Shown here: piece by piece, positions 995-53,163 of the stretch
Layout of the letters: each line of letters starts with the position of its first letter
Numbering within the stretch: position 1 is the stretch's first letter
Origin: Sphaerolaimus hirsutus
Lineage: Eukaryota; Nematoda; Chromadorea; Monhysterida; Sphaerolaimidae
Assembly: GCA_964036195.1 (NCBI GenBank)
Contig: OZ038459.1
Coordinates: 11,653,206 to 11,717,205 of the forward strand
Length of the DNA stretch: 64,000 nt
Reading direction: 5' to 3'
Notes under the pieces: model-generated
The model's input: the letters and a program-made list of their open reading frames with translations, nothing else
What the model was told of the DNA's origin: nothing
Database searches by the model: none
Translations under genes and position numbers: made by a program

Positions 995-3900
995 TCACAG
1001 TGGCCCTGAAATGTATATTGTGTTGCGTATCACATCTTTACAGCATATACGCGAGTTTCACGTTGGAAATATCCATAGAATGAATTTTTGTGTCAAATTT
1101 CCGTTTTGTTTCCACCTTTCCGCAGGAAAATTTTTTCCTTTCCGTTTTCCCCAGCTGAAAATGTTATACCTTTCCGTAAAGTGAAAATTTTTACCTTTCC
1201 ATTTTCCATAAAAAAATTTTTGACACACTAATCACCAGTTTCAAACTCATTGGTCGCGTTCACATGGCCGCCGGTACCCGCCTGAGCGTCAGTGTAGTAG
1301 TACCGCGGAACATTCTGTGAGCAGTCCCAAACTCTGTAAAATTCCCTGCAAAATGTCAAATATCTGTCAAGTGTCAATTATCGTACAAAATTCGTTTGCC
1401 ATTTTGCAATGCATTTTACACAACTTTTGACACTTGACAAATATTTGACATTTTACAGGGAATTTTACAGAGTTTGGGGTTGATACCTGGGTGGGGCGAC
1501 TCATGCTAGCCCCGGCAACACTCGAGGAGCGCATCACATAGCGCGTCTTAGTGGTCCCGGTGCCGGTGCCGGCGCCGGGGCCAAATGAATGCATGCTGTG
1601 CGCCTCCGCCTGACTTTGGGACAAATCGATCAGGTCGCCTATTGGGGGTGGTATATATTTGACTTGTAAAAAATCACCAATTCCACGTATGTTTACCGTA
1701 TTCACTTAAATACAAGAGTGTCATTTTGATTTTGTTGTCCGGCTTTTTATCTGCCATTCTATTTGGGGGAATAGAGAAAATAGTGCACAAAACAAATACT
1801 AACCCTGAATCTGCCTCACGGTGGAAAAAATGGTTTTCTGGTCTTTGAAAATTGTTTTCTGGTCTTTGGAAATAGCTTTCTGGTCTTTGGCGATTATATC
1901 CAAAGCAGCCTTTAAATCCGCCAATTCAATTTGCGAGTGTACTTCTTGTGCTAATTTCACAAGTAAATGTAAAAATTAAAATTTGACAACAAAAAAATTT
2001 CACTATATTTGGAAATTCTCATGTTACCAACTCTTAACATTTACACCGACTTGTGAAATTAGTACCTGGGGGTCTGTCGTACAGGACCGTCTCATTATAC
2101 GTGATTTCACTGCGCGGGGTGCTGCAGGCGTACACAGGGCCCCTCATAGGGACATTCGGTCTTTGGGGGCCAGCGGGGTGTACCTGGGGGTAAAACAAAA
2201 ATAAGTTACCAAAATCGAAAACTTTCAAATGTCAATCAAATCCCACAGTAGGCAGCTGATCCCAAAAAATGTCAATTCCAAATGCATGAACTCTGCCATA
2301 TATCGAAAAAAAACAATCTACCTGGGTAACCTGAGTACCAGCCGCGTAAGCACCAGTAGCGTGAGCGCCGACCGCGTGAGCACCAGCCGCGAGAGCGCCG
2401 GCCAGATGAGCGCCGGCCAGTTGAGCACCGGCCAGCTGAGCACCGCCCGCGTGAGCGCTGGCCGGCTGAGCGCCGCCGCCCTGGAGAGCAGTCCCAGGCC
2501 CTGTAAAACCCCTGTAAAATGTCAAATGTCACGCAAAATGTTAATTGTCATGCAAAATACGTTTGCCATTTTGCAGGGCATTTTCCATGACTTTCGACAC
2601 TTTCCGTGACATTTGACATTTTACAGGTCTTTTTACATGGTCTGGGATTGAGACCTGACCCCCACCCCCCTGAGCGGAGCCGACTGGGGGGTTTTCGCCG
2701 GGGTAAATCTTGCGGCGCAAATACTGCGTTGTTAAAATTTTTGTTTTTTAAACTTTGTTAAAAATTGTAAATTTTTGAAAATTTAATTTGTACTCACAGC
2801 AAACAAAACCTGGGCCAAATAAACAACCCCCAGCATGAACAAATTGACACCACCTTGAAATGCGCTGTCAAATGTTTTGTACTCCCAGTTTTCCGCGTAG
2901 TACTCAACGCGGTACAGTGATGCCTCAATTTGCTCCAATTTTTCGAGAATGAGGTCCAACTGCAAAAAAACGACTAAATTTTAAATTATGTAATTATGTC
3001 AACTAGAGATAGTTTGCATTTTTTATATCTAATGTATTTTAGTACATGAACACTAGGTATTTTGCAATGTTTTACGTGCAAGTGTATAATTTCACATATT
3101 TTTTGATTCAAGGAGTTTGTAAAATTGATTTTTTCCATCTCTAGTTGTTTATTGAGTGATCTATTCTATATGCTAATGCATATACCTTTTCCAGCACATC
3201 ATTATCCACCAAATCATCAACCGCTGTAGGAGTGGCGCCAACACTTTCCAAAATCAATTTTGCACTTTGCCTACGCACCACTGATGCAACGTGTACAGTA
3301 TCAGTGGGGGTAGAAGGTGCACTCGATGGAGCAGCTGTAGTTGATGGAATGGCATTAGAATGTTCCGCCATCAATGTAGCCGAGGTGGTGGGTGGCGTGC
3401 TATAACACAGAGTGCCAAAACATCTCAATTGTTATTCACTGTGTGACCCATAACAGAAAATCAACACAGATCAACTCACACTTTTGTGGATGGTGAGTAC
3501 AGATTTGGTACAAATCGGCGGCAAAGTGTGTCAAAGTATTCCTTTTCCTCCAAAACAATGTTTACACACTTGAAAAACTCTTTTGATGTGTTTGCAGGGG
3601 GTGTTGGGGTTGGCGAGGAGGTGGGAGCCAAGGTGGGGTCTGGGGTGGTGAGAGCTGAGGTGGGGTCCGGGGTGGTGGGGTCCGGGGTGGTGGGGGGTGA
3701 GGTGGTGGGGGGTGGGGTGGTTGAGAAGGGTTTTGGAGTTGCAGGAGAAGTGCGATTTGGGGGTGACGGCGAGATCTAAAAAGGGGATTAAAATTGAATT
3801 TTCACTATTTTTCTATTTTCCATTTTGAAAACACACCCAAATCATTTTTGGTTTGCATGGTTCCGGAGTAGGGCAGGCGGGGGTAGGAGGGCAAGGGCAT

Positions 3901-5042
3901 TTAATAGCACACAAATTACATTTGCATCCAAATGCCTCCACTTTGCACCATTTTTCACCACCTTGTGGTGTTCTGTACGCAACCATCAAAGTAGCGTTGA
4001 CCGGTGTTTTGGACTCAGTGCTAGTTGTAGTTACTGACATGGCAGTGGTAGTAGAAAAAGTGGTAGTAGTTGGGGTGGGGGTATTAATGTCAGTTAGGGG
4101 TCGCAAGCCCTTTAACTCACCACTCAGCGCAGGTGGCTGCGTTATGAAAAAAGTATTTACTATATATCTTCAAAGTTTTGTAAAAATTTTGAAAAAATTT
4201 TTGAAAAAAAACCCAAACCATATCACAAAATGTGAATTTACAATTTGGCCCCGTTCCCTGAAACCCCCCATTCAGTGATCCTGACACCGATCCCGAAAAG
4301 TCTTTAACCCCAACCCCACAGACCCGACCCCATTAAAATTTCATCACAGCTATCATTTTTCGAAATTTTTGAAAAAGAAAAAGTTTTTTAAACAACCAAC
4401 CGCCTGAGTGGTGCTCTGCATGAATTTGCGCGTGTCTGCAGGGCTATCGGTTAGGCGCCGGGTTGTGCTACTTGGAATTCTGGTGCGCGCGGATGTTCGC
4501 CCCTTAATAAGTGTTATTTCTATTTCAAAAATTAAAATACATGTGATAAATTTTTAAAATTTGAAGAAAAAAAAACAAACCGAAATTTCACACTGATAAT
4601 TCTTGAAATTCGGGAATTTGTCGCGCACCGCGATGCACAGGGCGCGAAATGGAGCAGTGACAATCACATCAGTAATGGAATTGTCAATTCCATATCTGCG
4701 TGAAACATTGAAATAAAAATATCATCTATACATAAATAATTCCCCTGGTGTTATTATTTCGTCAGACATTTTCCGGGGGTCCTATTCGAGGGGTTTATCA
4801 AAATTTTCAGGCATTTTTGCATGAACTCAATTCAAGTGGGGGACTATTCTATCAATTACGGTATCCAGTAAATCAAAAATCGAATAAAATCTACAAAAAA
4901 CTCACGCGGACAAATCGGAGCGCGGCATAACTTTGCAATTTGCAACCACGCCGGTACAGGTGCACAAATGACGGTCGCAGGGGGGCACGGCTAGCACCCT
5001 GGAGACCGCGAAGCAGAACAGGGCGGCGCGAAACAAAAACAT
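995..5042 (-). CDS. Gene A: predicted secreted/type I membrane protein, 14 exons, 694 aa
   Basis: Exons chained by splice signals and phase: 4906-5042, 4581-4695, 4401-4502, 3837-4136, 3480-3775, 3186-3399, 2798-2959, 2655-2723, 2322-2480, 2066-2183, 1804-1950, 1487-1662, 1236-1314, 995-1005. All are GT-AG and every phase agrees. The start has a signal peptide (MFLFRAALFCFAVSRVLA), then a C-x4-C-x-C-x6-C cluster (C22, C27, C29, C36) resembling an LRR N-terminal cap. Next come Thr/Pro-rich mucin-like stretches (about 119-317) with a Cys-rich patch, one membrane segment (about 426-442) followed by YLRRK, and a long cytoplasmic tail. The tail has an AGAQL-type pentapeptide repeat (about 466-518) and a coiled-coil-like KDQK repeat (about 565-605). 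It may be a cell-surface receptor or adhesion protein; the family is not recognised. Introns 8, 10 and 12 are TIR elements. An acceptor directly before the ATG implies an upstream exon. The last 11-nt exon is the weakest call. Confidence 0.8.
1315..1486 (-). mobile_element. Family A introner = intron 12 of gene A
   Basis: In gene orientation the exon ends ..CACCCAG, then comes GTATCAACCCCAAACTCTG. The other end is the inverted sequence CAGAGTTTGGGACTGCTCACAG, followed by the next exon AATGTTCCGCGG. The TIRs thus begin at the donor GT and finish at the acceptor AG, and CAG is present on both sides. Removal joins two open exons in phase 0. Length 172 nt. Confidence 0.85.
1951..2065 (-). mobile_element. 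Second type of TIR intron = intron 10 of gene A
   Basis: The 115-nt intron reads GTACTAATTTCACAAGT at its 5' end and ACTTGTGAAATTAG at its 3' end. The 14-bp CTAATTTCACAAGT is therefore a terminal inverted repeat abutting both splice sites. Its sequence is unrelated to family A. Splicing keeps phase 1 between exons 10 and 11. Confidence 0.65.
2322..2480 (-). repeat. Coding tandem repeat in exon 9 of gene A
   Basis: A degenerate 15-bp unit encodes the pentapeptide pattern A-G-A-(Q/H)-(L/A), about nine times, in the predicted cytoplasmic tail. The stretch is much richer in GC than its surroundings. It is bounded upstream by a family A introner and downstream by an ordinary intron. Confidence 0.7.
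2481..2654 (-). mobile_element. Family A introner = intron 8 of gene A
   Basis: The donor side reads GGTCAG/GTCTCAATCCCAGACC and the acceptor side GGCCTGGGACTGCTCTCCAG/GGCGGC. The two ends are inverted copies (TCCCAGACC versus GGCCTGGGA) and CAG flanks both sides. The 174-nt intron is the whole element. Exons 8 and 9 join in phase 0. Confidence 0.85.
3000..3147. repeat. Small TIR element inside intron 6 of gene A
   Basis: Ends CAACTAGAGATAG and CATCTCTAGTTG are inverted. This 148-bp element lies within the 226-nt intron 2960-3185, not flush with its splice sites, so it is an ordinary intronic insertion. Confidence 0.55.
4740..4862. repeat. Degenerate family B element in intron 1 of gene A
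   Basis: Intron 4696-4905 contains the family B words TTATTATTTCGTCAG and CCTATTCGAGGGG and finishes with ATTACGGTA. The copy is short and decayed. Confidence 0.45.
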
Positions 5043-6766: not shown

Positions 6767-8608
6767 TTATCCTGGTCTGGCACGGCGGATAAAAAAGTTT
6801 AACCACACCAACAGAAAATGTAACATCAGTGCGTGTTCAGCAGAATTGTTCTGAAAAAACGCCGTATGAATAATAGTGCGTAGTCTCATTGTACCATGCG
6901 CGTTCAAAAGATTTAATTTTATGTATTTATGAAGGACGACAGAATTTGGCAGTATAAAATTATCAATAATAGTCTTAATAATATTGTTGGGGAAACCATC
7001 CATCATAAATAAATTTTCAAAAATCACTTCTCTTATGGCTCTATTTGTGTTGAAGGCGTATATGACATCATATACATAGTTTTGGTTCATCAAAGTCTGC
7101 ATATTTCCATTCAAAGCCAACATTTTGCCTACACCAATCATAGAAATGTACATGGCTACCGTATTACTAACAGCCATCTGAAATTTAACTTTTTTATGTT
7201 TTAGATTTGGAATTTAAAAAGGGTATATATACTCACATAAATACTCAAAATTGCAGCGTCATCCAAAATTAACTGACTTGACATATTTTGGTTCCAAAAA
7301 GGGAACCTTGCAATTACACCAGTTTACACCCCCCCAAACCCTGTAAAATGACCTGTAAAATGTCAAACGCTGTGCAAGTACCAAAGTTATTGAAAATACC
7401 CTATAAAATGGTATCAAAATAAAAATTTTATTCCACAATATTTGACATTTACAGGTCATTTTACAGGGTTTGGGGGGGTGTACCAGATCTTATTAATTGA
7501 CCCAAATTTCTGAAATGTTAAAGCAAACATTCTGATATAAATATTTGATTAAGTTATGCAAATATTACCTATATTGATTTAAAGTGATAAATTCCCTCAC
7601 ATCCATTCCATTTAAATATGGATGTTCACCAATATTTATGACATTGTTTGTGTCAATTGCCGGTGCAGTCATTTGATATATTGTTTGAAAACAATTTGAT
7701 CTTCTGTAAAATCAATTTTTTTACAAAATAAATTTTTACCCACAATAGCATTTGAACAAACGTGGTTACTGGTAAAACTGCATTCAATTGGGGTTGCTGA
7801 TAGATAAACGGTGGAGCATTTACATTCAGGTGCCTTGATGAAGAAGTAGAGCATTGCCTGTTAAAAGTAAAATATAATGTGTCCATTAATATATGAAACA
7901 CTTATTACATAGAAAACATACTGTTGCAATTGCCTTATTTGTGGTGTATTCATATTATTTTGAATTCTCTGTTGTGGTGTGTGGGAAATTTGTTGTGCTT
8001 GTGATGTATGTGGGATTGTACCTTGCCCTACATTATTCGTTTGAACAGGCAATGTTGACGACATTCGTGTTGTATTTGGGGGCTGAAAAACATGAAAATT
8101 TATACCACAACATAGCTTTTTGGTGTAAAATTCATTTTAACCTGATTTTGCAGAGCATTGGGTTCAACTTGTGTAATATGTGGTCCATTTCCGACAACAT
8201 TGTGATTTTGTTGGTTACTTTCACTAACACTTTGTTCATCACCAACAACTACACACAAATTTGGAACTCGATTTCTTTGTGCAGAAGGGCGCCCATCACC
8301 TACTGCACCAACATTATGAGCAGTATTTGAAGTAGAGGGTACATTTGGATCATTTGTTAATATTTCTTCAATCTGATCTGATATGGAAATATATTTTTTG
8401 TAAAATAAAAAATCATGGAAAATATATTTACCAAACCTGCATTCAGTGATTGAAAAAAATCGGTCAGGTCATCAGTGGGCCTAAAATGGTATATTTAACC
8501 TAAGAAAAATACAAATTTATTCAAGTAAACATTTTTATCTTACCTCAATACGCAGTGACACATAGAAAATAAAACTTGCAAACATATTGAATATTGAAAA
8601 AAATTCAT
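6767..8608 (-). CDS. Gene B: unrecognised 411-aa protein, 8 exons
   Basis: Exons: 8544-8608, 8437-8480, 8142-8377, 7922-8082, 7744-7857, 7569-7703, 7237-7306, 6767-7177, all GT-AG with consistent phases. The start MNFFQYSICLQVLFSMCHC resembles a short signal peptide. Residues about 40-200 are N/Q/T/P-rich and probably disordered. The last exon (136 codons) is more ordered, with hydrophobic helices near MAVSNTVAMYISMIGVGKML and near the end HFLLVWLNFFIRR. No known domain was recognised. Most introns are very short (59-64 nt, one of 40 nt); the 262-nt one has swallowed a family A element. AATAAA signals follow the stop on the minus strand near 6672. It diverges from gene C. Confidence 0.7.
7320..7483. 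mobile_element. Family A element inside intron 6 of gene B
   Basis: Inverted ends GTACACCCCCCCAAACCCTG and CAGGGTTTGGGGGGGTGTA are flanked by CTG on both sides, the same target as the introners. Here the best exon chain (7569-7703 to 7237-7306) skips the 26-nt segment 7484-7509 and uses an acceptor 13 nt beyond the element. The element is therefore nested in a larger intron rather than equal to it. Confidence 0.65.
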
Positions 8609-9264: not shown

Positions 9265-11859
9265 ATGGCAAGTTACATGGCGGATAACCTTTCTGTCTTC
9301 AACACCGAGACTGAGTTAGCTATTTATACATGCAAAATGTTCTATTTACCTGTAAAATGTAATATGTCATGCAAAGTGTTAATAGTTATATAAAACAATT
9401 TATTACTTTGATCAATAATTTCAGGGTGTTTAAAAAACACCCTTCCAAAAATTATACTACCGGTCCGGTAGCTGTCCATGTATTTTGAGTATTTTTATTG
9501 AGTATTATTAAATACTTCTGAGTACAGATAAGAATAAAGATCTTTGTGTCTAGATGCACAGTTGAAACAACACATTCACGGGTTCATCATCACATTTCAG
9601 ACATGAACGAAAGTGCACAGGTACGCTAGAGAGGGCGGTAGATACAGCACCAGAAGTTGCGTCAGAATCCACGCCAGGGTCGGTGGCGGATTCCACAACG
9701 GTGGCCACGTCAGAATTTGCTCCGTGGACCGCAACAGAGTACACAACTTGGGTCGTGCCAGAGTCCATGCTGAACACATCACCGGACACCGCACCTGGTA
9801 CCGCACTGGACACCGCGCCGGACAGCACCCTGGACACCGCGCGGGACACCGCGCCGGACACCGCGCCGGACACCGCGCCGGACACTGCGCCGGACACTGC
9901 GCCGGACACCGCGCCGGACACCGCGCTGGACATCGCGCTGGACACCGCGCCGGACACCGCACCGGACACCGCGCCGGACACCGCGCTGGACACCGCGCTG
10001 GACACCGCGCAGGACACAGCGCAGGACACCGCGCCGGACACCGTGCCGGACACCTCGGCGGACACCGCGATGAGTCCAGTGCTGGAGGGCGTGCCCGAGT
10101 CAATGGCGATGGTCAAGACTGAGCCTGTGTTGGAAACTGCGCCAGATACGTTGGTGAGTGCCACGGGGGAGTCCATGCCGAATACGGAGTCAGAGTACAT
10201 GCAGTACATCGCACCAGGTGTCAGTCCCAATCCCTGCAAAGTGTATAGTGTATTATCAATTGTAAAGTAAAAATTGAATAAAAATAGAAAATTGAGTTTA
10301 CATTTAACTTGACATTATACATTACACTTTACAGGGTTTGGGACTGCCCCCAGATGGTATGGAGGATATTTATAGAGACAATACACAACCGTTTATCACG
10401 TATGGAAATACAGTGTCAGAGTGCTCGCAAGAGTTCTCAGACGGAATGTCTGAGTGCTCGCCTGAAAAAATTGATGAAAATCAAAAATGTGGGTGTTTTG
10501 ATGGAAAAATGGAAAATAGAAATGCACCCCTGGATGATGATGCAAACAGTTGGATCAGTGGAGTCCTGGAGTCAGACACACAGGACAGTGATTATGTCAT
10601 GTCTGAAGAGAGTGAAAGTGAAGACAGTGAAGCTGAAAGTGAACAGGGAGTGGAAAATGTGGATTACGTGAAAATAAAAATGAGGAGATCGTTCAAAATC
10701 TTAAATAAAATTTACGACAATTTTGGATTGTTTTTGGAAAATTTGGAGAAAGATAAAAAGGTTATTTGATTTTCTTACAGTCCTCACTAGGTAGGTTGAA
10801 CCCGTAATATTTATGTTTCGAGCCAAGTCGGTGTTTGGTAAAATACAGGTGTTTTTGCCCAGAGAATTTGAGGTAAATACTCAAGTTTATCTCAGGGAAA
10901 AAATACTCAACGTTGCACCATATTATATACTCAAGGTGAACGACATAAATACCTTGAATTGGTATCATATTTTTGATAAGGGGCTTCTTAGAAGCCCCTG
11001 AAATGATGGTAGAAACATGTAAAAAACCAATTATCTCAGGCGCTCACCGCAATGGAATTGTGTCGTGGCGAATATTTGCCATTGGATCTAAAAATGGAAA
11101 TTGCTGATAAATGTCGTATCAAAATGGTCGAATGCATCACTCATATAAAAAATACAGCTATGACGGACATTTTGGCAGCAATGTACACTGGGGATAGGCT
11201 ATGTGACATGGAATCTGTCAGGAAAAATCTAATAACTGAAGTAAGAATATTTAATAATTAATATTTTAGGTATATATATATATTCCATTACTCAGCATGC
11301 AAACTTGGAAAAATGGACAAAAAATAGATTGCATGAAATGCAACAGAGAATAGATTTTTTCAATGAGAACATTGGTACTTTGGTCAAAGTAAATGTTGTG
11401 CTAAGATACGGAAATGAAATTCTGCAAAACCGCAACTTTCCAATTTGGAGGCTAAGTGGGGATGTCAGTGAAGATTCTCTGTGCACAGAAGGGCATGCAA
11501 ATGAATGTGAACCCATTAAATATATTTTGGCGAAATGTAAAAAATACAAAAAGGATCATATAAGGCATTTTGAAAACGGAACATTGGAGTGTACAGAGTG
11601 TGCTACAAATGCTAAGGGTTACAAGGGCAGGCGCTGTGAAGTGTTGAAAGAAAGTTAGTAATAAAATTTGAATTGAAATTGAAATATATATATATATTTA
11701 ATGTACCCTATAGTTGAAAGGACAGCCACGGACGAAATAGACGAACACAAACAACTTGTGGTCGTTGGATACTTTGATTGCAGTGTCTGTGAATGTAATG
11801 ATAAGAGTGACACTTATTTGACATCCAGTTCTGATGAAGATAGTATGGAGGAGGGATGA
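9265..11859 (+). CDS. Gene C: repeat-containing, probably intracellular protein, 6 exons, 600 aa
   Basis: Exons: 9265-9338 (least certain), 9601-10217, 10354-10760, 11040-11240, 11296-11653, 11714-11859, with all phases matching. There is no signal peptide. Residues about 87-180 are a DTAP tetrapeptide array encoded by a 12-bp unit. Exon 3 is very acidic (EESESEDSEAESEQ). Exons 4-6 look globular, with many charged residues and several Cys (for example LECTECATNAKGYKGRRCEV), and the protein ends in another acidic tail. The family is not recognised; the acidic tracts suggest a nuclear or cytoplasmic role. Intron 2 is a family A introner. An alternative reading would use the small open frame 10813-11001 inside intron 3. 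AATAAA lies 86 nt past the stop. Confidence 0.7.
9788..10065 (+). repeat. Coding 12-bp tandem repeat (DTAP) in gene C
   Basis: About 22 copies of GACACCGCGCCG with variants (GCGCTG, GCGCAG). The array is open in all frames, so long overlapping open frames appear on both strands. The DTAP frame is the one that splices in phase to the flanking exons. Confidence 0.85.
10218..10353 (+). mobile_element. Family A introner = intron 2 of gene C
   Basis: The exon ends GCACCAG, the element starts GTGTCAGTCCCAATCCCTGC and finishes CAGGGTTTGGGACTGCCCCCAG, and the next exon starts ATGGTATGGAGG. The TIRs are flush with GT and AG, and CCAG is on both sides. The 136-nt removal joins phase 1 to phase 1 to give ..YIAP-DGMEDIY.. 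Confidence 0.9.
10978..11000. repeat. Short perfect palindrome in intron 3 of gene C
   Basis: AGGGGCTTCTTAGAAGCCCCT can fold into a strong hairpin. In an animal intron this is not a terminator; its role is unknown. Confidence 0.5.
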
Positions 11860-12563: not shown

Positions 12564-12879
12564 ACCCTCCAAAAGAATATGCATCAGCGCATGTAACCAT
12601 CGTGCAGAAATTTTGCACATGCAAATTTTGTGATAATAAACAAAATTAATATGCAAACAAACCATACACACAAATTATTGACTTTTGTCTGTATTTTGGG
12701 GCTATTTACAGCAGCCCCTATAAAAGACTGGTCCCCGGTGAAAAATATTTTTTTTCAAAAGTCAATAATTTGTGTGTATGGTTTGTTTGCATATTAATTT
12801 TGTTTATTATCACAAAATTTGCATGTGCAAAATTTCTGCACGATGGTTACATGCGCTGATGCATATTCTTTTGGAGGGT
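12564..12879. repeat. Perfect 124-bp inverted repeat (family G)
   Basis: Arms 12564-12687 and 12756-12879 are identical as reverse complements over all 124 positions, around a 68-nt loop that contains GGCTATTTACAGCAGCCCC and GGTCCCCGGTG. Related, more diverged sequence is at 14625-14915 and 18520-18790. Confidence 0.9.
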
Positions 12880-16680: not shown

Positions 16681-17019
16681 ATGACATTATCTATACAAAT
16701 CTAAGCACTTTTCTCCACAATGGCGTTCCATTGTCAACCGGAACTCTCAGCTGTAAAATAACATCACAAAAATAAGAAAACTTGACTTGATTAGGCATAA
16801 TCTTGCTTTTGGCACTGGCGCTATTGGTATTCAAAGTGGAATTTTTTGAGGGCTCAATTGAGTAGCTGTTTCAATTTTGACAATGAAACATGTAGGTTAC
16901 AAGTTTTCTGCACTTTGTAAAAGTACCATGCAGAAACCATGTGCCTATCATGTTGGAGCAGAGTAAAACACACCTAGTAAAACTAGAAAGGGCATAGACC
17001 ACATGCTTGGGGCATTCCC

Positions 17020-17372
17020 AGACCCTATAAAAGTCCCTGTTAAGTGTCAAAGACCCTGTAAAATGTCATGTGTCATGTAAAAGACCCTGTAAAATGTCAT
17101 GTGTCATGTAAAAGACCCTGTCAATTGTCAAATGTCATGTAAAAGACCCTGTAAAGTGTCACGTGTTTCCAAATCTTATGTTTTTGTATCCAAATCTTAT
17201 GTTTTTTGTATCCAAATCTTATGTAAATTATAAGATTTGGATACAAAAACATAAGATTTGGATATTATAAAATAAAATTTGGATACACATAACACTTTAC
17301 AGGGTATTTTACATTACACATGACATTTTACAGGGTCTTTGACACTTTTCAAGGTTTTTTACAGGGTCTAGG
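17020..17372. mobile_element. Family A2 element
   Basis: Ends ATTCCCAGACCCTATAAAAG and TTTTACAGGGTCTAGGAGT are inverted. The core carries TATCCAAATCTTATG repeats, inverted as CATAAGATTTGGATA. No exons are visible on either side. Confidence 0.7.
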
Positions 17373-18150
17373 AGTAGTGGCTGATAATCGGAACATAAAT
17401 ATGGAAGCTCCAGGTGATTCTGATTATTTTAAGTGTTTATTGGTGAAAATCGGTTGAGAAATAGCTGAGATATTGAGTTCTGAAATTGCATGCATTTTCA
17501 TTCAACTGGAGCAAATCAGCATATGAAATTTACACATCACTAATCCGACCACAAAAATTGAATCTGCACGCTGTCCTGATCATTTTAATTGTTGACCGCT
17601 CATAAACAGCCCATAAATGACCAACTTATTAAGCTTCAAAAGCAATGTCCAGATAAGGCATACAAAATGAACACCTTTGTATAGACGCCCTAATCTCAGG
17701 AGTGGGGGATTATTTGAGCAAACAAAAATATTTGGTCACAACACAAATGAAATTTAATGTACATAATTATTTACTGCAGATTTCAAAACAACATTCAAAT
17801 CACTGCAATACAACATGACCTCAGATGATCACCAAAACATCCATCACAGTTCCCACGTTTCTTGCACATCACCCTGATTTGCATATTAATTTTACCTTGA
17901 TAGCAATGATGTTGATAAAAGTGTTGAATACTATCAGCACATTGCCAACACACTGGCTTACACTAGCCAAAGTTACATGATCACAACTGAAAGCAGCGTT
18001 GAGCTATAGCACCATGTGTACATCAGTACAAAATGACCGAAATTGTAACACCCACAGTTCCGCAGTGGATGGAGCTGAGGGGTGAAATTTTGGGTAAAAA
18101 CTCAAAACACCTTATATGTTTACGTGTTGAAATTTTATGACAGTAGCTCG
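17373..18150. other. Unassigned stretch
   Basis: No open segment bounded by good splice sites and no recognised repeat. Confidence 0.4.
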
Positions 18151-18792: not shown

Positions 18793-19283
18793 TATTAATA
18801 TGATGAAAAGTGCGGGGAAAATGGGCAACTCAACAGCTATCGATTGCAATCGAATTCAATGAACTCAACCGAACTGTTGGTAGAAAAATAGAAGCCGACA
18901 GATTTGCACCCGCCGATGAATAAACTTATCACCGCATTTGAAAAAGCCCAGTGCGACATTCCAAACTAAGGTGCTTCGGGTGGGTCTATGGAAGAAATTG
19001 AAGCAATACTAAACGCATCAGAAGGTTACTTGGGCAGGGTTGGCAAAATCTCAGAAAAGAATAAAAATAAAATAAAAATAAAATGGAAAATTGAAGAATA
19101 AAATAAAATAAAATAAAATGGAAAATTTCAAAATAAAAATAAAAATTGTATAAAAATTCGAATTTTTGTAAAAATTTTGTAAAATTGTATACAAATTCAT
19201 ATTTTTGTAAAAATGGTATTAAAATTCATAATTTTTGTAAAAAATTTTTCTGTTGTTTATTGTTCAACCTGTTTGTTCGCGGA

Positions 19284-19706
19284 GCTGGGGCAGTCCCAAG
19301 CCATATAAAGTGTCAAAATGTCATAAAATGAAATGGAAAGTGTCAATTGTCATGACAAATGTTGAGTAAAGTGTCAATTGTCATGACAAATATAAATTAA
19401 AGTGGAAACTGTAAAGCAAATTGTATCCAAATCTTTTCTTTTGTATCCAAATCTTGTTGTCGTTTTTGTAGCCATATCTTATGTGAACATTTGGATACAA
19501 AAACATAAGAGTTGGATACCAAAACATAAGGTTTGGATACAAAAACATAAAATTCAGATACACAATTTACACTTTGCATGACATTTTTCATGACAATCAT
19601 ACTTTGCTTGACATTTCAGATGTCAATTGACTCTTTACTTTACATTTGTCATGACAATTGACACTTTGCATGACGTTTTACAAATGTGCCAAGCACACTC
19701 CAGTAA
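19284..19706. mobile_element. Family A2 segment inside the hAT-like element
   Basis: The left end is CTGGGGCAGTCCCAAGCC and the right end is GCACACTCCAG. The core has TATCCAAATCTTATG inverted repeats and many GTCAATTGTCATGACAAATG words. The same segment lies inverted at 55313-55756 in copy 2, so it was captured before the hAT element spread. Confidence 0.65.
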
Positions 19707-19981
19707 TCTTTCTACTGAAAATGCAAACCATTCTTATCGATAATTGTAACTTTACACTTGCAGCTAGCTAACAATACCTATTGCATGCAACTTTTGCAGA
19801 GTAATAGAAAAATTTGTCATGCGTTTTTCATGTTTAGGTCTAATTATCACATTTTTCTGGCCTTGCATGCAAGATTCTGATTTTTTGTAAAATTTCTGTA
19901 AAATTTTTGTAAAATTTTTGTAAAATGGTCCCATTTTATCATTTTTTATTTATTTTGGAATAAAATAAAATAGAATGAAAC

Positions 19982-23462: not shown

Positions 23463-25825
23463 TTTATGGTAATGTAGTGTGAAAATGGTATGAATATTTC
23501 AAAAAATCACTATCATCAATCCACAAATGCATCAATTCACAATTTTCAATTTTTTAGCCCCAAGGGTTAGACTTAAAAGGTTATGGTAATGTAGAGTAGA
23601 AATGGAGTGCACATCTCAAATCACTGCAATAAAAAACCCACAAACGCATCATTTCACAAATTGAAAGTTTTTGTGCCCAGGGGTTCATTATCAGGGTTTT
23701 AGTCAAATGGTGTCAAAATGGAGTGCATATTTGAAATCGCTACAATCAGAAACCCACAAACACATCATTTTATGATTTGAAAATTTTTGGCCCTGGGGGT
23801 TCATTTTCAGGGTTATGGTAATGTAGTGTCAAAATGAAGTGCATATTTCAAATCAAGGCAATCAAAAAGCCACAAATGCATCATTTCACAATTTCTAATT
23901 TATTAGCCCCATGGGTTCAATTTAAGGCTTACAGTAATGTAGAGTTGAAATTGAGTCATTTCAAATCAGTGCAATAAGAAACCTGCAAAATGCATCATTT
24001 TACAATTAGAAATTTTTGGGTCTAGGGGTTCAATTTCAGAGATTTAGTAATGTAGTGTCAAAATGGAGTGCATATTTGAAATCGCTACAATCAGAAACCC
24101 ACAAATGCATCATTTTATGATTTGAAAGTTTTTGGCTTAGGGGGTTCATTTTTATGGTTATGGTAATGTAGTGTCAAAATGAAGTGCATATTTCAAATGA
24201 GTGCAATCAGAAACCTGAAAATGAATGATTTCACAAATTGAAAGTTTTTGGCTCCAGAGGTTCATTTTCAGGGTTATGGTTATGTAGTTTTCAGGGTTAT
24301 GTAGTGTCAAAATGGATTGCATATTTCAAATCAGTGCAATTAGAAACCCACATCGAATCATTTCACAATTTCTAATTTTTTAAGCCCTGGGCATATTTGA
24401 AATAGCTACACTCTGAAACCCACAAATCCATCATTTTATGGTTTGAAAGTTTTTGGCCCAGGGGGTTCATTTTTAGGGTTATGGTAATGTAGTGTCAAAA
24501 TGAAGTGCATATTTCAAATGAGTGCTATCAGAAACCCGAAAATGCATCATTTCTCAAATTGAAAGTTTTTGGCCCAGGGGGTTCATTTTTAGGGTTATGG
24601 TAATGTAGTGTCAAAATGAAGTGCATATTTCAAATGAGTGCTATCAGAAACCCAAAAATGCATCATTTCTCAAATTGAAAGTATTTGGCCCCATGGGTTC
24701 ATTTTTAGGGTTATGGTAATGTAGTGTCAAAACGGAGTGCATATATCAAATTGGTGCAATCATAGACCCAAATTTGAAATCAGTGCAATCAGAAACCCAA
24801 AAATGAATGATTTCCTTATGGAAAGTTTTTGGCTCCAGAGGTTCATTTTCAGGGTTATGGTTATGTAGTTTTCAGGGTTATGTAGTGTCAAAACGGAGTG
24901 CATATTTCAAATCAGTGCAATTAGAAACCCACATTGAATCATTTCACAATTTCTAATTTTTTAAGCCCTGGGCATATTTGAAATCACTACACTCAGAAAC
25001 TCACAAATCCATCATTTTATGATTTGAAAGTTTTTGGCCCAGGGGGTTCATTTTAGGGTTATGGTAATGTAATGTCAATATGAAGTGCATATTTCAGATG
25101 AGTGCAATCAGAAACCCGAAAATGCATCATTTCTCAAATTGAAAGTATTTAACCCCATGGGTCCATTTTGAGGGTTATGGTAATGTAGTGTCAAAATGGA
25201 GTGCATATATCAAATCAGTGCAATCAGAAACCCAAATTTGAAATCAGTGCAATCAGAAACCAAAAATGCATCATTTCACAAATTGAAATTTTTTGGCCCC
25301 AGTGGTTCATTTTCAGGGTTATGGTAATGTAGTGTCAAAATGAAGTGCATATTTCAAATGAGTGCAATCAGAAACCTGAAAATGCATCATTTCTCAAATT
25401 GAAAGTATTTGGCCCCATGGGTTCATTTTTCAGGTTATGGTAATGTAGTGTCAATGGAGTGCATATATCAAATCAGTGCAATCAGAAACCTAAATTTGAA
25501 ATCAGTGCAACCAGAAACCCAAAAATGCATCATTTCACAAATTGAAAGTTTTTGGCCCCAGTGGTTCATTTTCAGGGTTATGGTAATGTAGTGTCAAAAT
25601 GGAGTGCATTATATATCAAATCAGTGCAATTAGAAACCCACAATGCATCATTTCACAATTTGATAATTTTGGCCCCATTTTGGGTTCAATTTCAGGGTTA
25701 TCGTAATGTACTGTCAGAATGGAGTGCATATTTCAAATCATTGTAATCAGTAACCCACAAATGCATTATATCACAATTTATATTTTTTAGCCCCGGGGGC
25801 CTCACTTAAGGATTATGGTAATGTT
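23463..25825. repeat. Satellite array, unit of about 116 bp, about 20 copies
   Basis: The unit includes GGGTTATGGTAATGTAGTGT, CAAAATGGAGTGCATATTTC and AATCAGTGCAATCAGAAACC. Some units are duplicated internally or truncated. One lone unit occurs inverted at 53466-53555. Confidence 0.9.
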
Positions 25826-26030
25826 ATTGTTAACTCCCATAAACTCAGCCCCTAATTTGGCAAACACCCATCAACTCAACTCCCATAAACTCAGCCTCTA
25901 ATTTTTAAACTTGTGTCAACAGCCCCTTATCTTTAAACTTCTGTCAACTCAACCCTAATTTATCAACACCCAGCAACTCAACCCTGAATTGTAAACTCAG
26001 CCCCTAAAAACTCAAGTCAACCCCCTATAC
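25826..26030. repeat. Degenerate 30-bp minisatellite, right flank
   Basis: About 6 decayed copies of CTCCCATAAACTCAGCCCCT, matching the array to the left of the 116-bp satellite. Confidence 0.7.
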
Positions 26031-27270
26031 ATGTGCAATTGCATTCTTGGGAAGCAACTTTGCCATCTACTAACCCTGTTTGTCAAGATTGTGGATCGTG
26101 TTTGTAAAGGGCATTTGTACTAATAAATAGTGACTGCATTGTGTGCAAAAACACACACGAATCGGGCACAATGAGGCCTGTGATTGTGCCTCCTATCTTT
26201 TGCATTGAAGCATGCTTAGCGTGCAGTTCTTTCGCAATTGTATAGGTGGAGATACGTGCCAATGCAACACTTAAGCTGCGATTTCAGCTCAACTACGTAA
26301 AATTCTAGCGTAAGACTTTATCACAGAATTTATTACATAAAAGTGGATGATACATGTCTCCAAGTTGTCATGTGTGAAGTACTGATCCATCTCTTTATCA
26401 TGTCCAAAACTGAGCGTCACAGTTGTTAAAATGTATTTACATTTACTTGAAAAATACTTGAAAAAGTAGCTGTACTCACCTTTATGCATACATTTGAAAA
26501 GTACATGTGTACAGAAAAAGTATTTCAGAAATTTCAAATTGCAATTGTTTGTTGCTAAGATAAAGAAACCTTGAAGAAATCATATCATTTTTCTTAGAAA
26601 TACTGAATACCTGATCATAAAAAACGACAACTACCTATTATGACTTACAGTGTAAAAATCGCTTTCACATGTAAAAGTAGTCTCTTTTACATTTTCCATG
26701 CAAAGAACCCAATTTTATATACCGTATTACCTCGAAATACCCCCAGGGGGTTTATTATTTCGCCAGCAAAATTTGAGGGGAGGGGGGAAATTCGAGGGGG
26801 GGGGGGGTTAATTCGAGGGGGGGGGGTGTTAATTCGAGGGGGCGTCTATTATTTCGCCAGAAATTTTCAGAAATTCCCCATACGCAGACGTAGAATAATC
26901 GAACAATTACATAGATGTATATGTGTTTATAGGCATATATAACTGTATATACACATAAGCCCTTCCCTAACGTCACTTGATCATCACTTTTAACGTGTGT
27001 TATGCAGTGTACAGATCACAAACTGCGGTATTTGTCATGCACGTTCTCTTTACACTCAATTTTGGGGGGGTATTTCGAGGGGGGGGAGGGTTTATTATTT
27101 CCTCAGTCGAATGTTATTATTATTATTATTATTGTGAATATGAGATGTAGGGCCATATCCATTGCTGGATTCCGCCCCTCTCTCACCTACTTCCGCCAAG
27201 GCTAGCTGAGGGGGATCAGCCTCACCCTGGCACATACAACGCCGCTTAGTACACAAACTTCTCAGTCGGT

Positions 27271-30200
27271 TTATCGATCTGTTATTTGCACCACACATTC
27301 ACGTATCATCCTATCTATACCCTTTCTGTGGGCATGGCATAGTTTAGCTCCAAGGGGATTTACCCTCCAGTCACATGGTATTGAGCATCGGATATTCTTT
27401 AGATTTTCACGCTCCGTTTTATTAACTTGGCACATATAGAGAATATGATGCAAATTTGCAACTATTTTTACATTGCTGCTGGAGCAGCGCTTGCAGACTT
27501 TTCTTTTGGCACCACTCCTTGTCCGAAGGGCATTGTATCTTGCAGCTAGCCAGTTCAGCTCATTGTAGTAAATATTTTTGATTTCTACTTGATCTAGCAC
27601 ACCACCTCTGTTAGTAACTGCTGTTTCTTTCATAAGTCTATTACGGGAAGATATCATCCTCTGACGGAGTATATAGGTTTTTATATCGGATCCTCTTAGG
27701 TTTTGGATAACCGTATTTATCTGGGATGACTCAATGCATTGATTGACCAGTGTCTTGTTGCTATTATCGATTTTCAATCGTGAGTTACCAGAGATGAGCT
27801 TGTCGGTTTCATGAGCTCTCACAAGCCATCTGGTCCTACAGGCTCGTTGCATGTAATTGTCATTTGTCATTATTAATTGGTTATATTTATCAGATGGTAA
27901 TATGCCATTTATATCATACAGCAGAGAGCTGCTGCTACAGCTAACAGGAAGTCTAGCTGCTTTTTTCATTGTTTGTACATACATCTTGTCCATCTCCACC
28001 AATTGGCTTTTGTCTAATCCAGTTATCTCTACCCCATACATTGATCCGGGTTCCACGTAGGCCTTCCATGTGATATTGGCCGTGTGGAGGGGTGTAATTG
28101 TCCCTTTGGCGGCATTTAAGGCTAGTGTACGTAACCTTTTCATTTTGGTTATGACATTAGTTTTGTGTGCCTTAAACGGATCTGCACCGGTGTTTATTAG
28201 CACCCCCAAGTACCTTATCTGATCTGTTTCTTTTATTATTTCCCTCTTGCGGTTTTTGAGACCCCCTATATCAATATACCATTCTTTTTTTGCGATTTTA
28301 CAATCGCCCCATCGTAGCACTTCACTTTTTGATGAGTTTATACTCACGCTCCATTTCCAGGCCCATGAGCTGAACACACTCATAAGATGTTCAAGTTCGC
28401 TATCTCTTGATGCCATAATAACAATGTCATCAGCAAAGAAGAGTGCTGGTATTTTCTCATTTCCCAGACCACATTTAGCTCCCATTTTTGTTTTTAATAG
28501 TTCAGTAGCCAGATCGTGTATATATATAGCATAAAGTGTTGGGCTCAGTGCACACCCCTGCGCCACACCTATTGGGTAGGCCAGCGTGTCACTTTCATAA
28601 CCCCCATATGTCATTACCGCTTTTGTCTTTATGTATACATTCGCTATTGCTGTAACCAGGATGCTTGGTATCCCCATCATCGTCATTTTCTTCCATAGTT
28701 TTTCTCTATCCACACGATCGAATGCTTTGACTGCGTCTATGAAACAGGTAACAAATGGATTACCATTCACTTGTGCATAATTGTAGCACGTCTTCAATAT
28801 CTGCACATTATCAAGTGTTCATCTACCCGGGCGGAACCCCCCTTGCATCTCTGTCAAGGCGTCATTTTCTTCAAGCCATCTTATTAGCCTCCGATTTAGT
28901 ACTGACATATATACCTTTTTGATGTTACACGATAATCCCAGTGTGCGGTAATTTTTCAAGTTTCCTTTATCACCTTTTTTATGTAAAAGTATCATTTTAC
29001 ATATAGCTGCTTCATCTGGTATTTGGTCACCCTTGAGCCAATTATTATAAATAGTGCAGAGGGTTATTTGATAGTCTTCTTCTAGTAGTTTGAGATGTTC
29101 ATGAAAAACACCTGTTGTACCTGCTGATTTATTATTCTTCAAATTAACAATTGCTTTCTCAATTTCTATAAGTGTAATTGGTTCAGTAAGTTTTTGCGTT
29201 GCTCTTACTGGTGCTTCAATCTTCGGTATCACCCCTGTCTCTGATAAATCACACCCTGGATTTGGCGTAATAACTACCTGCCATGCTTTGTCCATCTCCG
29301 CTTTCATTGTATTCATGGATGCAGCTGGTTCACCATCCTCAGTATAGATTGTGTGTACAATGTCTCTATCTCCACCACATATTTTGTTTACTTTTTTGAA
29401 TATCTCCTGCATCTGGTAATTCCCGCCTTGTTTAACAAGTCGTTCTATATGTAGTTGTTTTTCTTCTCTGTCCAGAGTCTTTTTCATGTTTCGTAGATTC
29501 CTCCGTTCCAATTTCAGATCACTGTTCAGCAGTTCCAGCATGCACTTGTCTTGCACATTTTCTTGTGTCTTCAATTTCCGCCTAAGTTTGGCTATTTTGC
29601 GGCATTGTTTCTTTATGTGTTTTGGTACTGATCTCATGAGCTCATTTTTTACTGGCACCACTGAGGCTACCCTAATTGCATTAATAACCTCTGAGTAGGT
29701 CGTTGGGTGGCTTTTTGCTAATTCTCTTTGGAAGTCTATCTCATCCTCCATTTTTTTTGGACGAAGTATTTTTCTGCATGTCTGTTTTAGGCTAACCGCA
29801 TAGCTAAACTTCATATATATCGCGTTGTGATCAGACTGTAGACTACTGTATGTATCACATTCGTCTATAACCCCTTTACTCATACACAGCGAACCATCTG
29901 TAAAACACAGATCAAGGATAGATTTGGCATTAACTCTTTTGAAGGTCCAGAGACCATCCATGTCACGATTTGCCGGTGACATCCCTGTGGTGCACATAAA
30001 AGCACGGACAAGTTTGCCGTTTGTATTTATGCACGGATCATTTGCTTCAATTCCCAATTCATCATTCCCAATGTGACCATTAAAGTCACCGATAACTAAA
30101 GTATTCTCGTATATTCTCCTATTGGATTCTATCATCTGAGTTAAGGCATCTAGTATATCACTATTCAGTTTCAGTACACTATTTGATTTTTTTATTTTAC

Positions 30201-31146
30201 TATTATTTTCTAAATACACTACGATTATATTGAGATTTGTACACCCAGTATTTATATTGTGTGAAGAACGCTTCATAGTACAATCCGAGGTACTGTCTTG
30301 TAAACCAGGATGATCGGTTACTTTTACACTAAGAACATTGTTTGACAAGTGATCAGCAACCCTGTTCAAAGTGTATTTTATCCCCTTTCGGATGTACATT
30401 GAGAGACCTCCTGTTTTCAGCGAGCTTTTGAATTTGTGTACCCCCGTATAACCACCTATACAAGCACATTCGGAGGCATTTTCATATTGTGTTTCGGTGA
30501 AACACAGTATTTCTGCACCGCTCTTTTTAACCGTCTCTAACAGGCAAGTCGCCTGGTTTTTGAGACATCTCACATTTTGGTATAATATAGACATTGCTAA
30601 AAGCGTGGAAATACTGCTTGCCAAGTGCTGTGCCACGCCACCCCCCGAAGCATTTACTGGGGTAAAGAGTGACATAAATAGTAGCACCTGTAACCATTTT
30701 ACCAACATCGATGATTTGTAGTCATGTTTCTTCAAATTTTTTGAGATATCACATGATTTTTCTATTTTCTTATGTGAATAAACTTTCTGCCAATTTGGCA
30801 AAAATCCAATAGATAGCTGTTGTGTCATCAAAATATTTCTTACCCCCTTCAGACATTGAATTACCACGTTTCCATGACTAATCACACCAACAAGTGTAAA
30901 TATATTTAGGTACAACAGGTATCCCAGTAGTGAAGCCACACTGTCAAATAATAACTGTGTTTCATTTTTCCATATTCTGTTTTCTGTAATTTCCATTTTC
31001 CATTCCACAATGATTTCTGGTTCCAATTCCAACTCTAGTTTTGTGTTAACTCGATGGACTGTAAAGTATGTACAGAATCCTACCATAATTTTATGAATAA
31101 CATCTTGTGTTAAATTATGTAGATAATTATGCCATAGTAAAAACAA
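27271..31146 (-). pseudogene. LINE endonuclease-reverse transcriptase ORF with one in-frame TGA
   Basis: A single frame of about 1,290 codons. An apurinic-type endonuclease domain begins near residue 186 (SILYQNVR) with TETQ, the GDFNGHIG motif and SDHNAIY. The reverse transcriptase follows, with KKGDKGNLKNYR, QGGFRPGR, CFIDAVKAFD, GVAQGCALSP and the catalytic FADD. Near the end lies a Cys/His motif (CKRC..HHILYMC) common in LINE C-termini. The only break is a TGA at 28819-28821, directly after FRPGR and before TLDN, where relatives normally have a sense codon. A C-to-T change from CGA is the simplest explanation. FADD rather than YADD is seen in Jockey/I/R1-type clades; I cannot assign the clade. 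Confidence 0.85.
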
Positions 31147-31236
31147 AATATTATGATGAAAAAACTGTATACTTTTTGGTTCATTATTCAGATTGGTTAT
31201 GATAGGTTTCCATACTAAGTGTGATGTCTGCTGAGT
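31056..31236. repeat. Family C MITE near the LINE 5' end
   Basis: It contains GAATCCTACCATAATTTTAT and inverted GATAGGTTTCCATACTA at its ends. It matches 6391-6515 inverted. Because it overlaps the start of the LINE frame, the true LINE start codon may lie further in, nearer the endonuclease domain. Confidence 0.6.
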
Positions 31237-31277
31237 ATGAATATTTTGTATTTTTCCAAGTGTGCAACTGTTGTCAA

Positions 31278-31655
31278 TTACCGTTGAGACATGACTTTCA
31301 CATAATACTTGAATACAGTTGTATTTTTTTCATTTTCAATTGATGTATTTTGCCGTGGCACGACCACGTTGGTGCTGTGTGCAGACCCCATTTGAGAATG
31401 GGGATGGGAAATCATAGGAATGCACTTTATTTGCCACGGCAAAAGTGGATCCATTGTGTTTTGGTACCTCGCTGTACCTTCAATGTGCCGGGCCGAAGCC
31501 CTAACGATGCAAGTCATCGATTTTTGGCACTGTTCCAGAATCATCGACTCCCTCAGAAACCGTGTAAAACACAGTTTGCATGTCGGGAGTGACGTTGGAA
31601 CTTGCCCTTGAGGCTGGAGGATCAAAAGGAAACCAACAAAACCCACAAAAAGCAC
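31278..31655 (-). other. Open segment upstream of the LINE frame, unclear
   Basis: A 125-codon open frame with several Cys on the minus strand and another open frame on the plus strand. It might be LINE 5' sequence, a captured host exon or chance. No domain recognised. Confidence 0.3.
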
Positions 31656-32615
31656 ACCCGTCGACAGCTTTGCACCGGAAAATAATCGACGCAGGAAAAT
31701 AATCTAGATCGATTTTTTCCTTTTTCCGGGGGGGGGGTATTTCGATGTTAGGGGGGGGGTATTTCGAGGGGGGGGGGTTAATTCAAGGGGGGGGGGGGAG
31801 TAATTCGAGGTAATACGGTATTCTATGAAGAAAAGTACTTGCTTTTACATTCTCCATTGAAAAAGTACTCACTTTTACATTTTCATGGAAGAAAAAGTAT
31901 TTTACTCACATGTGCTCATTAGTATGGGTAAAAAAGTATTTTTCATTTTCTATACTCAGGACAGGGGAGAGTAAAAAAATATTTACATATACCTACATAT
32001 AATTTGAAAAGTTCAGTAATTTGAACAACTCTGCTCAGCGTGAACGTTTAACTTTTTCTGGATGGATCGAATTTTTTATAATTTTATGTCGAAAGTTAGG
32101 TAATTAATTAGATTTTTATGCCACAGCATTTCCGGTTAAATTCCTTATTTCAGCGGCATTGCATAAAGAAAGACACCAACAAATAAAACTGCCATGCACC
32201 CACGCTATGGAGGCAAATAGGTATGCAAAATGCAAATAGTGAGGAGTAGCGGGTGGCAGAAAACGCAACGCTGCAACATATTTTGTTACGACACTTTTGG
32301 TCAACAAAATGAACGCCTAAGGCTTATTGGAAAACTGCCCGCGATGATATAATGATTACTGGCGCACACCATGGCTTGGATACTCATTCTGGTTAAATTT
32401 TAATAGTTTAACATTCGTATTTTACTTAGGTACATGGGTATACGGCGTACACACATACGGCGTATTATATTTTACTACACCTGATGGGAATATAATCCCA
32501 GTATAGATACTCCGATGTACACATGATGAGGTTACGTAAATAAAAAGGTTGGCTTATCACACAGCCCGTGTGAATCTTTTTCGCAGATGCAAAGTTGTGC
32601 AGTAAATTAGCAATA

Positions 32616-32714: not shown

Positions 32715-32891
32715 TAATTATGAAGTGGAATAGGTGTGTATAATAATAGAAACGAAACCAAAAACATTTTTTATATAGTAATATATGTAGGTATGATGAA
32801 TGTCTTCCTACAATACCTAAATACGTAAACACATACCAGAACACGAACGATAATCCCAACGCCCAAATACCCATTCCATCCAACCATCTAC

Positions 32892-33837
32892 TCCGCCCAA
32901 GATATGCGCGGCGGCCTGAGCCAGAACGTTCGCCTTCATTGCGTCCACCTTGTCCCTGTCCGGCATGATGCCCAAGCTGTCCAGCACGTCGGCCTGCTGC
33001 CACACGAGGTTGTCTATCTGCGACGCGTCCATCGAAGTCTGGTGCTGGCGCTTGGCAGCGTGGTGCGTGTGCGGCTGGCGCGCGTGCGTGCTCGGAGTGG
33101 AGTGTCTGCACGCGAACCGATTGAGGTCCGTTTGGACCGTGTTGACCAGCTGCGGGAAACACAGCGAGTGATCTGAATGGACGCACCTACCCCTCCCTCC
33201 GACGGGCGGCGGCGCGGGCGGCCTGGCCCTGACCGCGGCGCCAGCCGCCGGTGGTCTGGCGTGCACGCAAGCTATCGCTTCCGCCTCGGGCACCATGCCG
33301 ATCATGAACGGCCCCATGGAGGACGCTTTACGCAGCGCGGCCGGCACCGCGTGGCCCGCCGACGTGCCAGATGAGGCGTGCGACAGTTTGGCCAGCATTT
33401 CATCTGGCTGCATTGAGCGAGTGGACTGTGGCGTACCGTTCATTGTGAAACAGTGCCAAACCGACTGGTTCCTGTAAGTGTAATTCGCTATCGCTTCCAG
33501 CTTTGTTCAACGCCTCCGCCCGGCCATAGCCCAGCGCGGCCGCCTGCACGGCAGCGAGCACGTCGGCCTGCGTCTGCGCGCGCCGCCTGAGTCGCTGCTG
33601 TCGGCGTCCTTGTCGATGCCGCGGCAGGCGCAGCAGTTCGGCTTGGGCGCCCAGGTCGGGCGGCGTGGCTGCCACGAAGTGCTGCCAGGCGCGAGCGAAC
33701 CCGGACGAGCCCATGGCTTGATTTGCGGCCGCCCCCGGCGCCGGTGTTTGCACAGCGGCGGCTGTCGTCGGTCGACTGGAGATGATTAAATCACGCACGA
33801 CGCCACCGAGATGCGGCGAGCGTGTATCCGCGTGCCG
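32892..33837 (-). CDS. Gene E: partial gene, two exons, function unknown
   Basis: Exon 33512-33837 starts after an acceptor with a pyrimidine tract (TTTTACGCAG) in phase 0. Exon 32892-33471 follows a 40-nt intron (GTTGAAC...CTTACAG), joined in phase 2. About 302 codons, very GC-rich against AT-rich surroundings. The peptide is rich in Ala, Gln and His with helical stretches (for example RRAQTQADVLAAVQAAALGY and DNLVWQQADVLDSLGI). No signal peptide or known domain. The upstream frame stays open to 34008, so the first exon may be longer. The downstream donor is uncertain (GTAGAT at 32890 is weak). Antisense frames are open too but less protein-like. Confidence 0.5.
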
Positions 33838-34009
33838 CTGCGTAAAAGCAGCCGTGCAGTGTAGGTGGTGCGCGGCCGGTGGTGGCCGAACTTGGCTGGA
33901 TTCGCTCACGGCGGCGCTCGTTACACCACGCTCCAGCGGGCCGATGTTCACAGCGAGTGTAGTAAGTAATAAATTGTTTCTGCCGCTCTCGGCTCGGCGG
34001 CTTCTCAAT

Positions 34010-40508: not shown

Positions 40509-40944
40509 CCGTATTACCTCGAATTATCCCCCCCCTTGAATTAACCCCCCCCCCCCCCTCGAATTAACCCCCCCTCAAAAAGGGCTGGGGAAATAATAAA
40601 CCCCCCCCCCCTCGAAATACCCCCCCCCCTTCGGAATGATGTACGTCATGTACATAATAAATACGTCATGTATGCAATGTACATGATGTATATTACCGTT
40701 TATTTGTATTGCAGCTACACATGGACATGTTTGTGTAGCTAATCTACTAAATATATCTTGTTTGGACACACTTATTACCTGTTTTGGGCATGCAAATGCC
40801 TACTATTTACTACAATACTTACGAAAATTTCTGACGAAATAATAAGACCCCCCCTCGAATAAACCCCCCCCCTCGAATTAACCCCCCCTCAAATTTTGCT
40901 GGCGAAATAATAAACCCCCATGGGGGTATTTCGAGGTAATACGG
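40509..40944. mobile_element. Family B element, full copy
   Basis: CCGTATTACCTCGAATTATC and the inverted TTTCGAGGTAATACGG, flanked by TA. The core is CCCC-rich on this strand, i.e. inverted relative to 45320-45747, with which it shares the AATGTACATGATGTATAT region. Confidence 0.8.
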
Positions 40945-50318: not shown

Positions 50319-50358
50319 TAGGTTTAAGGCTCTTCCGGGCTTAATTTACGCGCGTAAA

Positions 50359-50586: not shown

Positions 50587-50589
50587 ATA

Positions 50590-51370: not shown

Positions 51371-51371
51371 A

Positions 51372-52930: not shown

Positions 52931-52974
52931 GTGGGCGGAGCCTGCAAGCAAGCTGCTTTCAGGGGGCAGACCCA

Positions 52975-53163
52975 GATTCTGTTAACTGCAAAGTAAGATG
53001 TCAAATGTCATGCAGTGTCAATTATCATGACAAATGCAAAGTAAAGTGTCAATTGTCACGCAAATTTCAGTAATAAAATATTCTTTTATTGATTGACATG
53101 ACATTTGACATTTGAGATTTGACATTTTACTTTACACTGTACATGGTCTGGAATTGGCACCAG
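52975..53163. mobile_element. Family A element with a satellite grown from its right end
   Basis: Left AACTGCAAAGTAAGATGTC, right TTTACTTTACACTGTACATG followed by GTCTGGAATTGGCACCAG, the family A terminus. Confidence 0.6.

Follow-up and report, generated by a model that had tools for sequence, protein, structure and literature searches.

Can a transposon provide an intron with its borders, and which of the two splice sites would it then bring along? The question is raised by intron 12 of a gene, here gene A, in the nematode Sphaerolaimus hirsutus, within a stretch of 64,000 nucleotides (contig OZ038459.1, positions 11,653,206 to 11,717,205) that was analysed as a whole and is called the window below. 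The window is eukaryotic because it holds intron-containing genes (Table 1) and a LINE-type reverse transcriptase, the latter encoded with its endonuclease at 27271-31329 (minus strand) as two neighbouring open frames whose coordinates make them a single frame interrupted by one stop. An initial annotation had read intron 12 as exactly one transposon-like element whose terminal inverted repeats (TIRs) run from GT to AG and which carries its own splice sites in the manner of introners, transposons that create introns.

The position given for intron 12 is correct: with the exons joined by script on the minus strand, its GT-AG borders read cag|GTATCA at the donor and CTGCTCACAG|aat at the acceptor. 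Removal in phase 0 leaves an open frame, as had been claimed, and flush-spliced gene A runs for 685 aa without a stop. The annotated 3-bp target duplication (TSD) is likewise borne out, with CAG on both sides of the element, E1. The element is indeed flush at the borders, but the intron consists of 169 bp of element plus one 3-bp copy of the TSD. The inverted arms are real, the first and last 60 bases being identical at 53/60 positions, but they do not reach from GT to AG, since pairing starts only at base 9 inward and the terminal 8 bases of the two ends agree at 3/8. Because the second CAG copy holds the acceptor AG, the element carries the donor only, and the claim that it carries both splice sites is ruled out. 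As for the introner reading itself, the borders of three copies (E1, E2 and E3) coincide with splice sites, and the two genes concerned lie on opposite strands; we infer from sequence that all three are spliced at these sites and that the introns were gained by insertion, and the reading is well supported for each of them.

Table 1. Genes, introns and element copies, numbered from the first base of the window.
Feature	Position	Strand	Description
Gene A	1228-5042	minus	13 exons, 685 aa, no internal stop, 12/12 introns GT-AG
Gene A, intron 12	1315-1486	minus	E1 plus one TSD copy (1315-1317)
Element E1, TSD excluded	1318-1486	minus	169 bp; first stem 52 pairs (predicted)
E1 ends	1486 and 1318	minus	donor end GTATCAAC... 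at 1486; other end TGAGCAGT... at 1318
TSD copy CAG (sense strand)	1487-1489	minus	last codon of exon 12
TSD copy CAG (sense strand)	1315-1317	minus	source of acceptor AG
Gene A, intron 8	2481-2654	minus	E2 (2484-2654, 171 bp) plus TSD CAG; phase 0
Gene D	6767-8375	minus	seven coding pieces, one open frame with N1 removed exactly; 5' end undefined in model
N1	7323-7483	minus	target CTG on gene D sense strand; exonic or within longer GT-AG intron
Gene C	9623-11658	plus	four exons modelled; 5' end left undefined in model
Gene C, first modelled intron	10218-10353	plus	E3 (10218-10350, 133 bp) plus TSD CAG; phase 1
N2	47826-48158	minus	333 bp; TSD CAG on plus strand; GC-rich flanks
N3	52963-53160	minus	198 bp; TSD CAG on plus strand; adjoins 46-bp tandem repeat
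Gene B	56707-60660	minus	7 exons, 342 aa, six GT-AG introns
Gene B, intron 1	59695-60578	minus	contains N4
N4	59730-59897	plus	168 bp; TSD CAG on plus strand; in gene B intron 1, antisense to gene B

Element copies and their target sites

Seven complete copies of the element family were found in the window; their borders were set by eye, in sight of the flanking repeat, before tabulation. They have the features of a MITE: a length of 133-333 bp, inverted ends, several copies and a TSD in each. With borders placed in this way, a direct 3-base repeat, CAG or CTG, flanks 7/7 copies, and in the three flush introns the duplicated triplet is always CAG. Judged from triplet frequency, one such pair would arise by chance with a probability of about 0.0004, CWG making up 2.7% of the triplets in the window. 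The 60-base arms are identical at 42-53 positions. Pairwise identity among the seven is 0.58-0.79 over aligned bases, and thus the copies are well diverged; E1, E2 and E3 can be aligned end to end at 0.67-0.79.

The duplication was also examined in a way that depends less on the eye, with a model of the element interior only and a fixed outward offset of 8 bases. Among its 39 hits, 14 that started past model position 6 were dropped; of the 25 end hits that remained, 14 have CAG or CTG where the offset puts it, three of these positives being internal CTGTAAA or CTGTTAA repeats. For the seven complete copies the figure is 9/13 listed ends, and the misses (the left end of E2, both ends of N1 and the left end of N4) fall where the end length differs from 8. 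Further loci, near 5332, 16146, 17009-17380, 19287, 37955, 46497-47499 and 55764, have recognisable ends without a clean direct duplication by eye, and were rejected as complete copies because they are decayed, rearranged or one-ended. Positions 24001-31999 and 50001-52000 were covered by repeat and profile scans, the other stretches by eye as well. A search of Rfam gave no match, and the longer TIR core had no exact match in viral_contigs; one exact match to the TIR core there (L001) has no partner end and was set aside as evidence.

Read inward from the duplication, the ends are of two kinds, sorted by eye into B (GTATCAAC, GTCTCAAT, GTGTCAGT, GTACACCC, GTGCCACT, GTGCCAAT and, in N4, TGCCAGCC, where one base of the GT end is apparently missing) and A (TGAGCAGT, GAGAGCAG, GGGGCAGT, TTTACACC, GGGGCACT, GGGGCAGA and again GGGGCAGT). 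GT opens 6/7 B ends and 0/7 A ends (Fisher 0.005, a descriptive value only, because the sorting was done by eye). The terminal 8 bases, compared end with end, agree at 3/8 in E2 as they do in E1, and at 6/8 in E3, with one base of the longer A end of E2 omitted. With every target oriented as CAG, four copies (E1, E2, E3, N4) start with the B end and three (N1, N2, N3) with the A end; insertion thus follows no fixed orientation. All three flush introns are in the spliceable orientation.

Other repeats lie among and beside these copies. Within the set of 27 modelled introns, terminal inverted repeats far above 200 shuffles occur in E1, E2, E3, the N1 stretch and intron 10 of gene A (A10; 1951-2065, minus strand). 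The A10 repeat, CTAATTTCACAAGT, is unrelated in sequence to the element family and scores 37 against a shuffle maximum of 18; it is flush at the acceptor, starts 3 bases inside the donor and has no clear target duplication by eye. Its core has no second copy in the window at up to one mismatch, and A10 may possibly represent a second introner family. A segment of about 0.9 kb is present twice, in inverted orientation, at 19029-19927 and 55089-56019 (pieces of 322 and 184 bases are 91 and 93% alike), and each copy contains a longer relative of the element; because both relatives sit in copies of one segment, they are probably not independent insertions. Beside N3, the unit of a 46-bp tandem repeat (53098-53529) includes the outer bases of end B (TCTGGAATTGGCACCAG), as if this end had been captured into a satellite. 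Another repeat, with many copies throughout the window (for example 45321-45748, 40511-40945 and 62480-62903), has G-rich TTCGAGGGGGGG stretches and is bounded by TACCGTAT and ATACGGTA, octamers with 21 and 14 exact plus-strand occurrences. At 12564-12687 and 12756-12879, a perfectly complementary inverted repeat of 124 bp encloses a 68-bp loop.

A probable donor from the element and acceptor from the target

The reading that we consider highly probable is that a non-autonomous DNA transposon, a MITE of 133-333 bp that is nearly all inverted repeat, makes introns by inserting at CWG (CAG or CTG) with duplication of the three bases. Its end B starts with GT and its end A does not. Where the sense strand of the target reads CAG and end B comes to lie upstream, the product would be CAG|GT......CAG|, in which the exon would retain its CAG, the donor would come from end B and the acceptor from the second CAG. 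With this layout, splicing in any phase would give back, base for base, the mRNA that existed before insertion.

An open frame alone says little about which splice sites are used, since frame-keeping GT-AG pairs are many: 37, 38 and 419 in the blocks around E1, E2 and E3, the first being the exon 12-13 block. The flush pairs stand out because, at three separate sites, they take away the element and exactly one copy of the target. Complete copies in coding sequence number 3/7 by the flush models and 4/7 if N1 is counted, and the four gene models make up 9.1% of the window and 207 of its 1730 CWG sites; under an even spread over CWG sites P is 0.04 for three or 0.005 for four, values that are rough because they count four modelled genes only, with further genes, for example near 32800-34000, outside the count. 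In gene B, 0/6 introns are flush with a copy of the family. N2 was rejected as a coding case: its joined flanks are open for 57-115 aa in all six frames.

The alternative that survives best, though we hold it to be unlikely, is that these are real introners spliced at inner TTTACAG or GTAAAA sites, so that transcripts would retain short remnants of the element. Such sites do lie in the arms, where the repeat CTGTAAAATG supplies GTAAAA donors on the left and TTTACAG acceptors on the right. In E1 a GTAAAA at 1468 or 1456 keeps the frame with the flush acceptor, and by eye the better pyrimidine tracts belong to TTTACAG sites that precede the flush acceptors by 19-20 bases. Against inner splicing, a join between the flush donor and the outermost TTTACAG is out of frame in each of E1, E2 and E3 (remnants of 19, 20 and 19 bases), and most of the inner sites are buried in a predicted stem.

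That stem is prominent in RNA folds. For E1, a first stem of 52 uninterrupted pairs is predicted, with 8 free bases at each end, and compared with 100 mononucleotide shuffles the folds have z values of -21.6 (E1), -11.4 (E2), -6.4 (E3) and -16.9 (N1). Folded with 25-base flanks, the GTAAAA and TTTACAG/TTTGCAG decoys are predicted to be almost fully paired in E1 and N1. The hairpin might therefore help by burying decoys in the stem and leaving the end sites free; we keep this role conditional because in the predicted folds the last G of one decoy acceptor in E2 is mostly unpaired and the flush donor of E1, with its flanks, is mostly paired to the downstream exon.

It is also conceivable that the transposons entered pre-existing introns and that later erosion produced borders that merely look flush. 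Insertion into introns does occur in this genome, since N4 lies inside a larger intron of gene B and N1 possibly inside a longer one of gene D. Yet E1, E2 and E3 have no intron sequence beyond element and duplication, and in 3/3 the upstream exon ends in the duplicated CAG; we regard this history as highly improbable for the flush copies.

Least probable of all is that the exon calls are wrong and the elements sit in non-coding DNA with frames open by chance: many frame-keeping alternatives exist and the proteins lack curated matches, yet gene A joins 13 exons in one frame, with 12 GT-AG introns, a stop and a signal peptide as judged by eye, three further gene models are consistent, and GC content steps at both borders of E1 (0.60/0.63 outside, 0.34 inside) and of E2 (0.80/0.70 outside, 0.42 inside). 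In E3 the step is present at the left border only, the right border running from 0.32 to 0.35, and the left border of N1 has none. Against Pfam, neither gene A nor gene B reached the curated cut-off (gene A had two weak matches below it), and the same holds for three pieces of gene C and for the final exon of gene D; NCBIfam had no match for the longer protein of gene D, and gene B drew four matches from the Protein Data Bank, all only at E 0.45-0.99. The first modelled exon of gene C (9694-10149, plus strand) is mostly a 12-bp tandem repeat encoding Ala-Pro-Asp-Thr-like units.

Copy N1 and the CTG target

The preferred reading of a CWG target with a donor from end B raises a further possibility where the sense-strand triplet is CTG. 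Exact removal of N1, which leaves the seven pieces of gene D in one frame, would amount to GT-TG splicing because its sense-strand target is CTG. N1 was dismissed as proof of this, as GT-AG routes fit too: three with one intron and 43 with two keep the frame, and three other acceptors are available for intron 4. By the simplest of them, intron 4 would run from 7568 to 7307 (minus strand) and end in GCAAG, at a cost of 39 bases or 13 residues. Across 7307-7568, N1 thus lies either within an exon or in an intron with a weak GCAAG acceptor, and it has a good acceptor, TTTCAG, and an open stretch of 13 residues on its flanks.

That copies at CTG in the spliceable orientation, such as N1, are removed exactly as GT-TG introns, their 3' end set by the hairpin and by the TTTACAG that N1 has 21 bases upstream, seems to us very unlikely. 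In humans, TG acceptors are described as alternatives near an AG only, within 28 nt, in the available text of one report (PMC2374985). If GT-TG removal did occur, the family would be a natural experiment on the next-to-last base of the intron, because its transposase accepts both CAG and CTG: CAG copies would yield GT-AG introns and CTG copies GT-TG introns.

Relation to described introners and transposons

Introners have been proposed to explain bursts of intron gain, and a 2016 study on Micromonas and Aureococcus is said to have described introners with TSD and TIR. A 2025 paper reportedly traces introns to horizontally transmitted transposons, and it may already cover a CWG introner. Judged by its sequence, E1 is an introner whose principle is known; its family could be matched, by published description, to none yet described. 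As far as the accessible parts of one survey report, introners occur in only two groups among animals and land plants, both of them animals, and most introner families leave mRNA length unchanged (PMC9860276).

A close parallel is found in Chrysochromulina sp., where, in the passages available, introners bring the 5' splice site with them and draw on a 4-bp TSD for the 3' site (PMC9860276). Common to both systems is one splice site in the element and the other from the duplication, whereas the Chrysochromulina duplications are of 4 bp and come with no inverted-repeat evidence in those passages, in contrast to the 3-bp CWG duplications and near full-length inverted repeats seen here (PMC9860276). 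Introners of Micromonas pusilla, Aureococcus and Symbiodinium share with ours a MITE-like build, TIRs, TSDs and flush introns; as excerpted, however, they differ both in their target and in how the splice sites are arranged: in Symbiodinium, for example, a 4-bp TSD provides the 5' site, and Aureococcus elements carry both sites (PMC9860276, PMC7789003). Amoebophrya introner elements resemble it in having inverted and direct repeats at intron borders and a predicted hairpin, which has been proposed to draw the exon borders together. They were, on the same partial account, defined among non-canonical introns with no family-specific repeat detected, whereas here three flush GT-AG introns share one family repeat (PMC7789003).

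With regard to the source of the transposase, the NuwaI group of PHIS (PIF/Harbinger-like) transposons is described, in the text available, as having a 3-bp 5'-CWG-3' target duplication and as occurring mainly in animals (PMC4482050). The 3-bp CWG duplication is shared by 7/7 complete copies as delimited by eye. A Pfam scan of seven of the 31 listed open reading frames of the window found neither of the two proteins expected of an autonomous NuwaI partner, a DDE transposase and a Myb/SANT protein. A transposase from the CWG-cutting, NuwaI-like group would fit the target, and it stays no more than a lead, no transposase having been found in the frames scanned. The one match listed for joint mentions of introner and Harbinger is a fungal paper, and no introner work is among the matches listed for NuwaI terms.

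Although the class of mechanism is already known, the CWG target lends itself to a clean test, across the genome, of what is required at a 3' splice site. Where the target triplet is itself the exon consensus, a single GT at one end would suffice to turn a transposon into an intron maker. As both CAG and CTG can serve as targets, counting exonic copies throughout the genome by orientation and by middle base would gauge directly how strictly selection and the spliceosome demand AG.
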